This document shows, one piece after another, positions 12,884-53,959 of a DNA stretch of 55,450 bases; position 1 is the first letter of the stretch; every line of letters starts with the position of its first letter. The stretch is from a virus. The translations under genes and the position numbers were made by a program. The stretch covers positions 1 through 55,450 of the IMG/VR virus record IMGVR_UViG_3300025108_000062. One strand, 5' to 3'. The notes under the pieces are model-generated. The model saw nothing but the letters and a program-made list of their open reading frames with translations. It was not told where the DNA came from and ran no database searches.

Positions 12884-12914
12884 AAAAAAAGTGCTATTAT
12901 TTAGTAAAAAAGTA

Positions 12915-12943
12915 TTTACAGTGGTCATTTTTTGTGGTAGAAT
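12915..12943 (+). promoter_or_regulatory. Strong early-type promoter for tRNA-like RNA 1
   Basis: TTTACA 12915-12920, 17-nt spacer, TAGAAT 12938-12943, behind an A/T-tract UP-like segment. The following ATAATCAGAATCAAGG leader start is shared with other early units. No protein gene lies between here and the next promoter; the transcript would carry the RNA at 12976-13089. Confidence 0.75.
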
Positions 12944-12975
12944 ATAATCAGAATCAAGGAAAACCCCTTAATAAA

Positions 12976-13089
12976 AGCTCTATAGTTTAAAAAGTAAAAC
13001 ATTCTCCACGACCTCTTCAACCATAAGTCACCGAAACCCCAATGGTTCGGGCGAGAAAAATAAAGGTGCAATTCCTTTTAGAGCAGCCA
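12976..13089 (+). ncRNA. tRNA-like RNA 1 with a 46-nt anticodon loop and encoded CCA
   Basis: Cloverleaf ends are intact: acceptor AGCTCTA (12976-12982) with TAGAGCA (13079-13085; 6 of 7 pairs, terminal A-A), positions 8-9 TA, D-stem GTTT/AAAC (perfect) around an 8-nt loop, T-stem AAAGG/CCTTT with 7-nt loop TGCAATT, discriminator G and CCA at 13087-13089. The anticodon stem TTCTC (13002-13006)/GAGAA (13053-13057) is perfect, but the loop is 46 nt instead of 7. The insert contains a hairpin CCGAA-A-CC/GG-TTCGG (13031-13050) and a weaker GAC/GTC arm. It follows a strong early promoter in a protein-free gap (12844-13227). Could be an interrupted tRNA or a tRNA-scaffold RNA of other function. Confidence 0.6.
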
Positions 13090-13137: not shown

Positions 13138-13165
13138 AAAAAGCCTATTTTTAGTAAAAAAAGTA

Positions 13166-13194
13166 TTTACAAACTACCCATCGTGTGGTAGAAT
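13166..13194 (+). promoter_or_regulatory. Early-type promoter for the 13.2-13.9 kb ORFs
   Basis: TTTACA 13166-13171, 17-nt spacer, TAGAAT 13189-13194, preceded by TTTTTAGTAAAAAAAG. The leader TCAGAATCAAGGAAG is shared with other units; ATG 33 nt beyond. Confidence 0.75.
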
Positions 13195-13227
13195 ATAATC
13201 AGAATCAAGGAAGAAAGTATATTAGTT

Positions 13228-13703: not shown

Positions 13704-13910
13704 ATGTTAAAAGAAAAAATGATTAGAAACTACATTGATTCAGGTGAGCATGTTTTCGTCTCGCTCAAACCATTTGATCCTATTGATGAATCCCTTTCCG
13801 CAGAAGGTGTTATCAAGCGGTTGGATGCGAATGGATGGTTTCAACTTGAATTCATGGGATCAATAAACGGTTACCATATTAGCCAAGTTAAAAGCATTAT
13901 AACAGATTAG
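13704..13910 (+). CDS. Hypothetical small early protein
   Basis: 68 residues, unrecognised. Beta-rich: GEHVFVSLKPFDPID, a GVIKRLDANGWFQLEFMG pair and a NGYHISQVKSI end, compatible with a small SH3- or OB-like barrel (pattern guess). Starts in a TTTTATTATG context. Last protein gene before the RNA-rich gap. Confidence 0.58.
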   Translation: MLKEKMIRNYIDSGEHVFVSLKPFDPIDESLSAEGVIKRLDANGWFQLEFMGSINGYHISQVKSIITD

Positions 13911-14029
13911 TCAAGTGAGTATAAACACGGTTAAGCGATAGAATAAGACGTAAAATAATGAACTATTGTGGGAGTAAGGGTGCCCTCAGAGAAAGACCCT
14001 CAACTTTAGGAAAACACAAAACAAAATAC
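13911..14029 (+). other. Gap with weak RNA structure upstream of tRNA-like RNA 2
   Basis: No ORF supported. A short stem AGGGT (13977-13981)/ACCCT (13996-14000) and a GTGGGAGTAA motif that recurs near 14217 are the only structure seen. Possibly the 5' leader of the RNA that follows; no early promoter of the common type is visible here, so it is probably transcribed from 13166. Confidence 0.35.
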
Positions 14030-14153
14030 GGCCCGGTCATTTAACAGGTAAGACCCATCTATATTATACCCAAATCAGTAAAGTGCACTTTACTGTGATG
14101 CGCGCTAGCTAGCGTCTATAGAGGGAATGCAGGTTCGAATCCTGCCCGGGCCT
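14030..14153 (+). ncRNA. tRNA-like RNA 2 with a 59-nt anticodon loop
   Basis: Perfect 7-bp acceptor GGCCCGG (14030-14036)/CCGGGCC (14146-14152), discriminator T, D-arm ATTT-AACAGGTA-AGAC (3 of 4 pairs, conserved A14 and GG), and a perfect T-arm GCAGG-TTCGAAT-CCTGC (14129-14145) that could make the normal D-loop/T-loop elbow. The anticodon stem CATCT (14056-14060)/AGAGG (14120-14124) has one A-G mismatch and extends 3 bp further. Between them are 59 nt holding the palindrome CAGTAAAGTGCACTTTACTG (14076-14095) and CGCTAGCTAGCG (14103-14114). CCA is not encoded. No ordinary 7-nt anticodon loop or class II variable arm can be drawn. Function unknown. Confidence 0.6.
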
Positions 14154-14156
14154 GCT

Positions 14157-14216
14157 CCTAGCAATTAACGAGGCGTCAAAGACTTCACGCCTACAACCTG
14201 AAAGGGGGAGGCTAGG
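14157..14216 (+). other. Nested hairpin downstream of tRNA-like RNA 2
   Basis: CCTAGC (14157-14162) pairs with GCTAGG (14211-14216), enclosing AGGCGT (14171-14176)/ACGCCT (14187-14192). No ORF, no U-tract, so it is not an ordinary terminator. May be a further structured RNA or processing signal. Confidence 0.4.
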
Positions 14217-14237
14217 TGGGAGTAAAAAAAATATATT

Positions 14238-14447
14238 ATGAAAAAATCAAATCAAATCAAATCGGCTATTGTCGAGGAAGTAATCCAAGATCTCATCCGC
14301 GAGATCGAAAGTGAACCGGACGATTCTATAGCACTTCCTATTTGGAAAGTCATGATGAGGTTACGTGAAAAATATTGCCCAGTAGACACTACAAACTTTA
14401 TTGAGAAATATGGATCGTATGATAATAAAAAAGCAAACTTTATGTAA
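14238..14447 (+). CDS. Hypothetical protein
   Basis: 69 residues, unrecognised; helical with AIVEEVIQDLIREIESEPDD and VMMRLREKYCP. Begins AAAAATATATTATG, the SD-less context common in this window. Downstream of the two tRNA-like RNAs. Confidence 0.58.
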   Translation: MKKSNQIKSAIVEEVIQDLIREIESEPDDSIALPIWKVMMRLREKYCPVDTTNFIEKYGSYDNKKANFM

Positions 14448-14455
14448 AAAAAGTA

Positions 14456-14484
14456 TTTACAACTGCCATTTTTTATGGTAGAAT
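14456..14484 (+). promoter_or_regulatory. Early-type promoter
   Basis: TTTACA 14456-14461, 17-nt spacer, TAGAAT 14479-14484; leader contains CAGAATCAAA as in other units; ATG 28 nt beyond. Confidence 0.75.
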
Positions 14485-14512
14485 ATATTCAGAATCAAAA
14501 AAGACTACCACA

Positions 14513-44001: not shown

Positions 44002-44649
44002 GTGCCTGACCCAAACATATTAAAAATTGAAAAACATAAAATTGCGTTTATGTTTGTGAATAAGGCCGGCAATTCTTCTGTAAAAAGAGTGATTGCAGAA
44101 AAGCTTTTAGGAAAAGGAAATGGAAAAGACGTTGTTTTATCATGGTCAGAACCTTTTCATGAAGATGTGGAATTTACTAATAGAATAAGTATACCACCCG
44201 ACTATCTTATCTTTGGCACCTGCCGTCATCCTGAAGATAGACTAATTAGTTGTTGGAAAGATAAAGTTCGCAATGGATTTAAACTACACGAAGGTTTATA
44301 CAAATCTTCTCGGAAATTTTACAAAGATATGCCATTTGCTGAATTTGTCAAAGAAATTTCTTTGATTAAATACAGATCTAAAATATGGGATCAACATATT
44401 AGACCGCAATGGCATGATTTAGACTTAACGCGCATTTCCTATCTAATCAGGGTTGAAAATTTTATTAGCGATTGGGAAAATGCTCGGGAAATGATAAAAA
44501 AACACTGCGGTGAAATATATCCAGAAATGATATTTCATGATCGAAACACTGGTTTATCTAAACCAAAAATAAGCAAAAAAACAAGATCTTTAATTGAAAA
44601 AATATACGCAAAAGATTATAGAATTTTAAACTATAAAAGCCGTGCCTGA
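44002..44649 (+). CDS. Sulfotransferase-like protein, copy 1
   Basis: 215 residues, GTG start (the same GTGCCTGA start as copy 2). FMFVNKAGNSSVKRV fits the 5'-phosphosulfate loop (PKxGxTS-like) and FGTCRHPEDRLISCWKDKVR the 3'-phosphate Arg/Ser block of carbohydrate sulfotransferases using PAPS. C-terminal LIRVENFISDWENAREMIKK is also typical. Acceptor unknown: surface or DNA-linked sugar are both possible. Confidence 0.78.
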   Translation: MPDPNILKIEKHKIAFMFVNKAGNSSVKRVIAEKLLGKGNGKDVVLSWSEPFHEDVEFTNRISIPPDYLIFGTCRHPEDRLISCWKDKVRNGFKLHEGLYKSSRKFYKDMPFAEFVKEISLIKYRSKIWDQHIRPQWHDLDLTRISYLIRVENFISDWENAREMIKKHCGEIYPEMIFHDRNTGLSKPKISKKTRSLIEKIYAKDYRILNYKSRA

Positions 44650-48681: not shown

Positions 48682-48711
48682 GTTCAGTTGAACACCAGTA
48701 TTCATCTGAAC
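48682..48711 (+). promoter_or_regulatory. Two GTTCA..TGAAC-type elements in 18-bp tandem
   Basis: GTTCAGTTGAAC at 48682-48693 and ATTCATCTGAAC at 48700-48711, both followed by ACC; the second ends 34 nt before the -35 box at 48746. Same 18-bp period as 13102-13137. Confidence 0.62.
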
Positions 48712-48745
48712 ACCAAAAAAAAGCACATTTTTAGTAAAAAAAGTA

Positions 48746-48774
48746 TTTACAATCCGCAGAAAATAGGTTAGAAT
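48746..48774 (+). promoter_or_regulatory. Early-type promoter
   Basis: TTTACA 48746-48751, 17-nt spacer, TAGAAT 48769-48774, leader with TCAGAATCAAACAAGAAAC; ATG 24 nt beyond. Confidence 0.77.
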
Positions 48775-48798
48775 ATAATCAGAATCAAACAAGAAACT

Positions 48799-49242
48799 AT
48801 GAAAAGAAACGGCAAAAAGAACATCCAACTCCTCCGCAACCTCATTTCAACCTTCAATGGAGATATTCCACGAAAAACGGTTGTTGCTCTTGCTACTAGC
48901 AACAATCTCATCGAAAATGATACCTATCCACTCATTAAGCCTATTGCTCGAGGAAATGAGCGAGGAACATACAGCGTTGATAAGATGTTGGAACTCGCCG
49001 ACAAAATCCTCAACAAAGGTAAAAAGGCCAAGCCTAGTACAAAAAAGGCTGTCAAAAAACCTTCTCTCAAGGAAGAAATTTTGGCGATGACTCCAACTGA
49101 ATTGGTTGACGAGTCTGGAATGTTTGAGGTTGCAGCTGCAATCCACGAGGAAAAAAACTACAACAATCGAGTATGGGGAGAAGTTCCATATACTGAAGAC
49201 GACGTCAATGACGAGCTCAGCCTTATGGGAACTTACCTTTAA
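48799..49242 (+). CDS. Hypothetical early protein
   Basis: 147 residues. N-terminal KRNGKKNIQLLRNLISTFNG and IPRKTVVALATSNNLI could form a helix-turn-helix-like unit; middle is Lys-rich (KGKKAKPSTKKAVKKPS); C-terminal half acidic (YTEDDVNDELSLMGTYL). Unrecognised. Confidence 0.62.
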   Translation: MKRNGKKNIQLLRNLISTFNGDIPRKTVVALATSNNLIENDTYPLIKPIARGNERGTYSVDKMLELADKILNKGKKAKPSTKKAVKKPSLKEEILAMTPTELVDESGMFEVAAAIHEEKNYNNRVWGEVPYTEDDVNDELSLMGTYL

Positions 49243-49675: not shown

Positions 49676-49711
49676 AGATTGAAAAAAAGCACATTTTTAG
49701 TAAAAAAAGTA

Positions 49712-49740
49712 TTTACAATCCGCAAAAAATAGGTTAGAAT
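49712..49740 (+). promoter_or_regulatory. Early-type promoter
   Basis: TTTACA 49712-49717, 17-nt spacer, TAGAAT 49735-49740, leader TCAGAATCAAGCAAGAAAC; ATG 29 nt beyond. UP-like ATTTTTAGTAAAAAAAG precedes it. Confidence 0.77.
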
Positions 49741-49769
49741 ATAATCAGAATCAAGCAAGAAACCACATT

Positions 49770-50252
49770 ATGACTACCACAGCTACAGAAAAATTCACCC
49801 AGATTTTCACTCAAATCCACGAAAATTATGGTTCACATGATTGGGATGGATCTGGCGAATGCCCGAACCATTGGAAACCTAAAGGAGGCACGACGTATAT
49901 CCTCGCGGAAGATGTTGATGTTGATGCCTTTATCAAAGCTATTGAAAGCGAAGACGACTATTTTACGGAAAAAGTTAGACACCAGGAAGTTGTTGAAGAC
50001 CCATACGAAAATGTTGAGTCTTGGGATCCACCAACATGGGTTACGAGTGCAGAAGATGGTTTCTTCCTTGACATCACGCAAACGGCTGAAACCAGCTCTT
50101 TACACCCAAAAATCGCTGTAAAAAAGTCTGTCACATGTCTTAATTTTGAGGGCTATTACAACCATCTTGAAACAGTGTACACTACGGTTGATGGAGAAAT
50201 TCTCGGATCGTCTAAAATTGAAGCTTGGCTCAAAGCAAATCCTTCTCGATAA
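49770..50252 (+). CDS. Hypothetical early protein
   Basis: 160 residues: HENYGSHDWDGSGECPNHWK, GGTTYILAEDVDVDAFIKAI, SWDPPTWVTSAEDGFFLDIT. Acidic, Trp-rich, unrecognised. First gene of its unit; host-takeover role would be a guess. Confidence 0.62.
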   Translation: MTTTATEKFTQIFTQIHENYGSHDWDGSGECPNHWKPKGGTTYILAEDVDVDAFIKAIESEDDYFTEKVRHQEVVEDPYENVESWDPPTWVTSAEDGFFLDITQTAETSSLHPKIAVKKSVTCLNFEGYYNHLETVYTTVDGEILGSSKIEAWLKANPSR

Positions 50253-52064: not shown

Positions 52065-53303
52065 ATGAAAGCGACAGATAAGATCAGCAAAATAATCGAA
52101 AATCTTCAAGATTCCATCAAAGAATTAGAAGGGCTGAAAACCGCTATTCCAAAAGCAGAAGAAGTTTCTAGTGCAGAATACAGCAGTGCTGAATCTAGTG
52201 CTGAATCCAAACCTACCAAGCAAAGAGGGACATGGCCATGTCCCAAACCTACCCAGGGTTTTTTTTCTCGTGGCTTAACCAAATCATGGCCAAGCTTCAA
52301 ATATCTCTCAGGGGAGATCGTAGGAAATCTGACGAAAACTCGGACAATGGCGTTAGATGACTTTAACGTCATTCACTCACTTGGTTATAAGTCTGACATG
52401 CACATTAAAACTGATACGCTTTTAGGGAGCATATCACGCGAGATGCCAGGCCATAAAGGCTTCATTGGTACAGTAGACGCGTCTAACGGAATTACATATT
52501 TCATGCCTGCTTACTCAACTTCTATCGGCAAATTAGAAAGACAAACTGGCAAACTTACTCTCGAAAACAAATTTCCTTCAACACCTCAAGTTAGATCTGG
52601 AGCTGAAGGAAAGAACGGTGTCATTTATATGCCATCCTATACTAGAACTCTTAAAATATACACCTACGATACTAAGACTGGAGAGACTACATCATTTACT
52701 CCTGAAAAACCTAAACGAAGTGGAATTGGTGGTTGCAACCATATTTGGGGAGCAGCTACAGATAAAAAAGGAGAGATTTACATGCCTCAAGTTCTAGGTT
52801 CTAGTGTTGCTAAGATTGATAAGAATGGTGTTTTTAAATACCTTGAAGGTCCTCCTGCTACTTCTGGAGTTTCCGGATGGACCCACAAATATGTCGGAGC
52901 AATTTATGTTGAAGCCGTTGATAAAGTATTCTGTTTACCAAGATGTGGTAAAAAAATCTTAATCATTAATTGTGTTGACGACACATACGAAGAAGTTGAC
53001 CTTCCAGCAGATTATTTGAAGGTGGCAAACAAGAATAAAAACTTTCACGGATTTTTAGGGCCTGATGGTTGGGTTTACAGCGCTTTCTGGGCTGACACCA
53101 AATGCTTTAGGATTAATCCGCACACCAATGAAATTCAGTGGAAAGATTACGAATACGAATTTATGGATGGACACCCAACAGTCAAAGCAGGATCAGGAAT
53201 CATGAGTCTTGGAACCGGATATTCTACAGCAGCACTAGTCAAAAACAAGAGTGTATACCTCGGCTTAGCTGGTACTTCAAGAGCTATTAAGCTCGAGTTC
53301 TAA
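52065..53303 (+). CDS. Late beta-propeller protein
   Basis: 412 residues. A coiled N-terminus (ISKIIENLQDSIKELEGLK) and a Ser/Ala/Glu linker (AEYSSAESSAES) precede repeated blades such as GTVDASNGITYFMPAYSTSI, GKNGVIYMPSYTRTLKIYTY, DKKGEIYMPQVLGSSVAKID and GPDGWVYSAFWADTKCFRIN, a YVTN/SMP-30-like six- or seven-bladed propeller. The late box suggests a virion or assembly product; a receptor-binding or tail accessory role is possible. An unusual hairpin plus T8 lies inside codons 55-68. Confidence 0.75.
   Translation: MKATDKISKIIENLQDSIKELEGLKTAIPKAEEVSSAEYSSAESSAESKPTKQRGTWPCPKPTQGFFSRGLTKSWPSFKYLSGEIVGNLTKTRTMALDDFNVIHSLGYKSDMHIKTDTLLGSISREMPGHKGFIGTVDASNGITYFMPAYSTSIGKLERQTGKLTLENKFPSTPQVRSGAEGKNGVIYMPSYTRTLKIYTYDTKTGETTSFTPEKPKRSGIGGCNHIWGAATDKKGEIYMPQVLGSSVAKIDKNGVFKYLEGPPATSGVSGWTHKYVGAIYVEAVDKVFCLPRCGKKILIINCVDDTYEEVDLPADYLKVANKNKNFHGFLGPDGWVYSAFWADTKCFRINPHTNEIQWKDYEYEFMDGHPTVKAGSGIMSLGTGYSTAALVKNKSVYLGLAGTSRAIKLEF
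52227..52267 (+). other. Intragenic hairpins with T-run (terminator-like)
   Basis: Perfect 18-nt palindrome GGGACATGGCCATGTCCC at 52227-52244, immediately followed by AAACC (52245-52249)/GGTTT and a run of eight Ts (52259-52266). It looks like a terminator but lies in an open reading frame. Confidence 0.5.
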
Positions 53304-53871: not shown

Positions 53872-53901
53872 AAAAAAAGTGCATTTTTTGTAAAAAAAGT
53901 A

Positions 53902-53930
53902 TGTACAGTAGTCATTTTTTATGGTAGAAT
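53902..53930 (+). promoter_or_regulatory. Early-type promoter
   Basis: TGTACA 53902-53907, 17-nt spacer, TAGAAT 53925-53930, behind ATTTTTTGTAAAAAAAG; leader with AAGCAAGAAAC; ATG 29 nt beyond. Confidence 0.77.
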
Positions 53931-53959
53931 ATTACTAGAATAAAGCAAGAAACTACCAT

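Follow-up and report, generated by a model that had tools for sequence, protein, structure and literature searches.

A tRNA-like phage RNA with a two-hairpin anticodon arm as the middle module of a larger RNA element

The tRNA-like RNA and its genomic setting

The window analyzed here, a virus record of 55,450 bases taken in full, comes from a marine T4-like phage and carries T4-type replication genes for a DNA polymerase, a clamp loader, UvsX, and a DnaB-like helicase, the polymerase sharing at most 48% identity with the best-listed phage among the matches listed from an annotated phage collection. Four ordinary tRNAs are found elsewhere in the window, and all four encode their CCA. When close relatives are compared, the neighboring cassettes differ strongly. 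A promoter-like cassette, TATTTACA...TAGAATATAATCAGAATCAAG, is repeated in the window before small exchangeable genes (12905-12955, 13160-13205, and 14447-14498, with further sites at 48684-48800, 49682-49770, and 53878-53948).

The feature under study, hereafter module B, occupies positions 14030..14153 of the plus strand, as do all modules, stems, and RNAs located below. Its assignment as a tRNA-like RNA draws on its fold stability, on a core shared by seven of seven homologs, and on the Rfam score of one of them. The acceptor (14030-14036/14146-14152, GGCCCGG/CCGGGCC) is paired at 7/7 positions and the T-arm (14129-14145, GCAGG-TTCGAAT-CCTGC) at 5/5. Between them lie T8, a D-arm (14040-14053) with A14 and with G18G19 in its loop, an anticodon helix (14054-14063/14117-14125, CCC-(A)-TCTATA with TATAGA-GGG), and the variable AAT (14126-14128), and the molecule ends with a U at position 73 (14153). 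The D-stem has three base pairs and position 10-25 is unpaired; when the variable loop is taken as positions 44-48, the helix extends two pairs further below the normal anticodon stem. The tip of this helix, CCC(A)TCTATA/TATAGAGGG, bears two hairpins and no 7-nt loop. After position 73 there is no CCA, and GCT stands there in all homologs.

The minimum free energy of B is -44.7 kcal/mol (z = -3.9), a value matched by 0 of 200 shuffles. The extent, perfect acceptor and T-arm, and D-loop GG given by the sequence-only reading of this DNA were borne out. A descriptor combining acceptor, T-arm, T8, A14, GG, and anticodon stem found B as its single site in the window and no site in 300 simulated windows, in agreement with the earlier view that a chance origin is unlikely. 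Neither ARAGORN, also with introns allowed, nor the Rfam tRNA model detected B in the window. A short protein read through B was rejected, as the ATG-to-TAG frame of one homolog (L034) is interrupted in L049 and L057, and in the window it lacks a start.

Homologs and conservation of the tRNA core

Seven distinct B sequences were compared, namely that of the window and six others, which lie on separate marine metagenome phage contigs; a near-identical relative of the window (L009) carries an identical B. The copies in L034, L035, and L037-L039 were located through a small upstream gene, and those in L048, L049/L051, L053, and L057 by DNA patterns. Genome matches in L059 (Corallococcus) and L061 (a Gammaproteobacteria MAG) and a viral match in L064 were set aside as chance matches in coding DNA, and L031 was rejected as a homolog because only a T-arm and acceptor stretch is in common.

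All seven sequences keep T8, A14, A15:U48, G18, G19, A21, G53:C61, T54, T55, C56, R57, and A58. The 7-bp acceptor and the 5-bp T-arm with its 7-nt T-loop are likewise paired in all seven, except for one C.A in L057. At acceptor pairs 2-71 and 7-66, and at pairs 25-45, 27-43, and 30-40 of the anticodon helix, both sides change while pairing is kept in most of the seven; this covariation amounts to about five pairs among seven hand-aligned sequences, in which the T-stem and most acceptor pairs are invariant. The L053 copy scores 31.9 bits against the Rfam tRNA model with the insert skipped (gathering score 29), and the homologs fold with z values of -2.3 to -4.9, the D-arm not always being recovered in minimum free energy folds. 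Since the core is kept in every distinct copy, the comparison indicates that the whole tRNA tertiary core of B is under selection.

None of the seven possesses an ordinary 7-nt anticodon loop. The sequence-only reading had proposed comparing homologous loci and had named homologs with such a loop as evidence against it; the comparison found conserved stems with a varying insert, and none of the six further distinct homologs has that loop. The kept elbow, the compensatory helix changes, and the free insert together argue that B is a selected RNA, the product neither of decay of a tRNA nor of chance.

The anticodon arm

In the window, the two hairpins of the insert are a perfect 20-nt palindrome, CAGTAAAGTGCACTTTACTG (hairpin A of the insert, 14076..14095), and a 12-nt palindrome, CGCTAGCTAGCG (hairpin B of the insert, 14103..14114). 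No other palindrome as long as the first occurs in the window, which holds two more perfect ones of 18 nt each (44348-44365 and 52227-52244). Two hairpins in place of a 7-nt loop are thus found where the sequence-only reading had put them. Across the homologs, the inserts fall into two classes: class 1 comprises the window, L053, and L057, and class 2 comprises L049 together with the L034 group and L048, whose two hairpins differ from those of class 1. Hairpin A is kept in L053 with one wobble and has another sequence in L057, and the counterparts of hairpin B, CGCTCCGGAGCG in L053 and CGCACCGGTGCG in L057, have changed bases but retain the stem, and their loop is still complementary to itself. 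The loop cores of all three class-1 inserts (UGCA; AGCU, CCGG; GGUACC) share this property. In class 2, both hairpins of L049 abut the helix, leaving hardly any base unpaired, and the L034-group insert has the weakest fold (z = -2.3).

The insert of the window is identical to that of L034 at only 23 of 62 aligned positions, versus 86/92 and 66/71 for the flanking modules A and C described below. Two hairpins on one helix nevertheless recur across the homologs although the insert sequence is hardly shared, which implies that the palindromes themselves are not the conserved feature; they are one version of a hairpin design. The earlier emphasis on two perfect palindromes accordingly holds for the window and fails as a conserved property, the exact 20-nt palindrome being confined to the window and L009, and class 2 having none.

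A larger modular element

The alignments indicate that B is the middle of a modular element of about 320 nt, A-B-C, whose flanking modules the sequence-only reading had overlooked. Module A (13908..14000, about 93 nt) lies between the stop codon of the upstream gene and B and contains the hairpins GTG/CAC and AGGGT/ACCCT. It is identical to its counterparts in L034-L039 at 86-89 of 92 positions, and the gene upstream of it at 129-133 of 213 nt. A pseudoknot between the A hairpin loop and upstream sequence, visible in L060, was discarded as inconsistent in other sequences.

Module C (14153..14224) is a three-way junction, a structure to which double changes in its closing stem and covariance model matches both point. 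The closing stem P1 (14157-14162/14211-14216, CCUAGC/GCUAGG) encloses hairpin 1 (14171-14176/14187-14192, AGGCGU/ACGCCU) and hairpin 2 (14197-14206), and an outer pairing, UGCUC/GAGUA (14153-14157/14220-14224), competes with P1 for C14157, which is common to both. P1 shows double changes with pairing kept in L060, L048, and the Tetrasphaera phage TJE1; there is almost no variation in the joining nucleotides AAUYAACG, ACAA, and RGAG; and the module is identical to those of the L034 group at 64-67 of 71 positions. The covariance model scores 69 bits in TJE1 and 71.5 bits in the L060 contig, both of which have C without B. The C-only copy of TJE1 (L047:1501-1560) sits inside a stretch of about 1.7 kb without annotated genes. 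The L060 contig is a circular phage contig of 51 kb that was binned with a Paceibacterota MAG, and its copy (L069:56-115) spans the joint. A search with the C model through 380 genomes from the phylum to which the L060 MAG belongs found the known copy alone. Because the outer strand UGCUC starts at position 73 of B and can pair with GAGUA, the acceptor stem and the C helix may form one stack, leaving no free 3′ end.

The modules occur in several arrangements. L057 has B-C without A in a different gene context, an ORF separates A from B in L048, the last hairpin of A ends about 8 nt from B in L053, and the empty locus of L036 has none of the three. B thus moves as a unit, and A, B, and C come apart. 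In the L034 group, L048, and L057, B is preceded at about 25 nt by a promoter-like GGAACT..TATAAT, and similar sequences stand before genes there. More generally, GGAACT(2-6 nt)TATAAT has many sites in L048, L052, and L057, which end mostly 5-7 nt before an ATG; if this motif is a promoter, it would give nearly leaderless phage mRNAs.

Other tRNA-like RNAs in the window and its relatives

The sequence-only reading had paired B with a second tRNA-like RNA nearby, RNA1 (12976..13086), which carries an anticodon-loop insert of about 46 nt and an adjoining CCA at 13087-13089. RNA1 stands as a tRNA-like sequence, with 38.7 bits against the Rfam tRNA model when the insert is skipped. The stretch folded, which lacks the first two acceptor bases, is no more stable than shuffles (z = -0.3), and the only other copy of RNA1 is in L009, the close relatives L010 and L011 missing it at that place. 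A strong promoter-like site immediately precedes RNA1.

The relatives also encode mini-tmRNAs, RNAs of 63-67 nt that consist of the tRNA-like domain of tmRNA only, with a tiny hairpin in place of the tag and pseudoknots. They were located on the plus strand at L009:8913-8975 (with CCA), L034:2086-2150, L038:2224-2290, and L048:6437-6500, and occur in L037 and L039 also; in the nearest relative (L009) the mini-tmRNA follows 0.7 kb downstream of the element. Those in L034, L038, and L048 score 49.6-65.6 bits against RF00023 (gathering score 47). Both versions have G3.U70, and their acceptors show four compensatory differences. The mini-tmRNAs probably serve as decoys for SmpB or alanyl-tRNA synthetase.

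Comparison with known RNAs

The closest match in design is T4 RNA C (species 1 RNA, rnaC), a late RNA whose function is not known (PMC9697503, PMC3014915). It is stable, phage-encoded, and of similar size, and has a TTCGAAT T-loop beside an acceptor-like stem. Its fold, computed here, combines a T-arm with an acceptor that is imperfect and with a large branched arm that, as in B, replaces the anticodon arm. The likeness is one of design only. T4 RNA C differs from B in two U.U mismatches in its acceptor, in a long variable-arm hairpin, in its place beside the T4 tRNA cluster, and in having no modules A and C. T4 was absent from the blastn matches of the element to the phage collection, which were 60-nt matches to TJE1 or generic T-arms.

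A second precedent is the tmRNA-domain-only RNA of mycobacteriophage DS6A, the one phage case described in the paper cited, similar molecules strongly inhibiting tmRNA (PMC4131195). Like this RNA and the mini-tmRNAs found here, B keeps the acceptor, D-loop, and T-arm and drops the decoding part; unlike them, it lacks the tmRNA D-loop (TGG.TTCGACG) and G3.U70 and has a long branched anticodon arm. That B is itself a tmRNA was rejected, as it has no tmRNA D-loop, G3.U70, or tag frame, and the Rfam tmRNA matches in relatives lie elsewhere. With ordinary tRNA (RF00005), B shares the acceptor, the elbow, the Levitt pair, and a 5-nt variable loop, and it departs from it in the missing 7-nt anticodon loop and encoded CCA, the 3-bp D-stem, and a 3′ end running directly into C. 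Judged as a decoding tRNA, B thus has the acceptor and T-arm and the elbow and core nucleotides (7/7) and lacks the anticodon stem-loop and CCA. YrlA, a bacterial Y RNA (RF02553), also has a tRNA-like elbow within a noncoding RNA; identity with it was rejected at 15.6 bits in the window against a gathering score of 69. GOLLD and ROOL resemble B as phage noncoding RNAs near or containing tRNAs, but they are far larger and modules A and C differ; the absence of any Rfam match to them in the window excluded identity. A literature search found no report of phage tRNAs with anticodon-arm inserts.

A non-decoding tRNA mimic and its alternatives

The reading that we favor, with a probability of roughly 0.5, is that B, as part of a modular A-B-C RNA, mimics a tRNA without decoding and is kept by selection, and that it would act as a decoy or scaffold through a host factor. 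The comparisons above indicate that B joins a tRNA fold to a non-decoding arm, is under selection, and lies directly beside C; the decoy or scaffold role is suggested by the missing anticodon loop and by analogy. With T4 RNA C and the tmRNA-domain-only RNAs as precedents, and mini-tmRNAs in the relatives, it is our leading idea, held with moderate confidence. On this proposal, B and C would probably be made as one transcript (or A-B-C together), in the relatives from the putative phage promoter about 25 nt upstream, and the C helix beginning at position 73 could stack on the acceptor stem of B. The complete elbow formed by T-loop and D-loop and the acceptor stem are retained, the anticodon arm being an extended helix with two hairpins, and B would most likely be read by a host factor that recognizes elbow and acceptor, candidates being RNase P, tRNA-modifying enzymes, EF-Tu, or a tRNA-targeting defense protein. 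Having lost its anticodon loop, B would be useless in translation and proof against anticodon nucleases, and C, with A where present, might provide the second binding surface of the decoy or scaffold.

The main rival to the decoy or scaffold is that B is a processing and spacing element: by its tRNA shape it would attract RNase P of the host, along with a 3′ nuclease, so that A is cut from B-C or C is freed, in the way known for mascRNA, a tRNA-like structure that terminates a human lncRNA. Only the acceptor and T-arm would then matter and the anticodon arm would be free to vary, and indeed the parts read by RNase P are the best kept, the insert is free, and B lies exactly between A and C, with the gap of about 8 nt in L053. 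Yet G18G19 of the D-loop, A21, the Levitt pair, and the two hairpins on the anticodon helix are kept too, the putative promoter that separates A from B in the L034 group and in L048 would make cleavage of A unnecessary, and TJE1 and L060 have C but no B; we regard this explanation as possible but on balance unlikely. An assembly of RNA only, a homodimer or larger, in which self-complementary hairpin loops kiss between molecules, has less in its favor and seems improbable. ROOL and GOLLD are oligomeric phage RNAs, and the class-1 loop cores stay self-complementary in 3/3 inserts despite base changes; tRNAs moreover sit in the GOLLD linker (PMC12286853). Against this, the class-2 inserts (L049 and the L034 group) lack such loops, Rfam matches the element to neither ROOL nor GOLLD, and short tetraloop stems are easily self-complementary.

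The two readings that would make B a tRNA gene proper fare worse. The sequence-only reading had suggested that removal of the insert would leave a TCT (Arg) anticodon, and the insert does lie in the anticodon arm, the site of tRNA introns, within an otherwise tRNA-like remainder that splicing could turn into a decoding tRNA. This suggestion did not survive the comparison: the seven homologs share neither an anticodon nor a splice boundary, their inserts belong to two unrelated classes, and the hairpins of L049 stack directly on the helix. The length of the insert also falls far short of a group I intron, and no Rfam intron matches it (group I and II scores were inadequate, and ARAGORN in intron mode returned nothing on B), and no CCA follows position 73, versus four of four ordinary phage tRNAs. 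Splicing of bulge-helix-bulge introns is not known from bacteria, and that motif was inspected in B by eye only. An intron-containing tRNA is thus very improbable. That B is a tRNA gene in decay, into which a random insertion has come, is scarcely credible at all: the neighboring cassettes are highly variable among close relatives, as decay might lead one to expect, but the homologs refute it with an invariant core and compensatory changes in all seven and an altered arm in every one, and the flanking RNA is better conserved than the neighboring gene.

A bolder and more doubtful extension of the non-decoding mimic is that A-B-C represents a new class of modular phage RNA, a defense-evading, tRNA-shaped decoy with swapped anticodon arms and modules exchanged among phages. 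If so, a complete tRNA fold would be fused acceptor-end-first to a separate conserved three-way-junction module, the freely swapped anticodon arm would keep the decoy ahead of host defenses that target tRNA, and the same phages would deploy tmRNA-domain decoys too. 

The usual accounts of phage tRNAs invoke codon supply or replacement of tRNAs cut by host defenses; a conserved phage RNA that has a tRNA fold but has lost decoding indicates that phages can make the tRNA shape for its own sake. T4 RNA C has been known for decades, and its unsolved role becomes testable by comparison. The reduction of tmRNA to its tRNA-like domain in the same phages, for its part, suggests a wider habit of tRNA mimicry.
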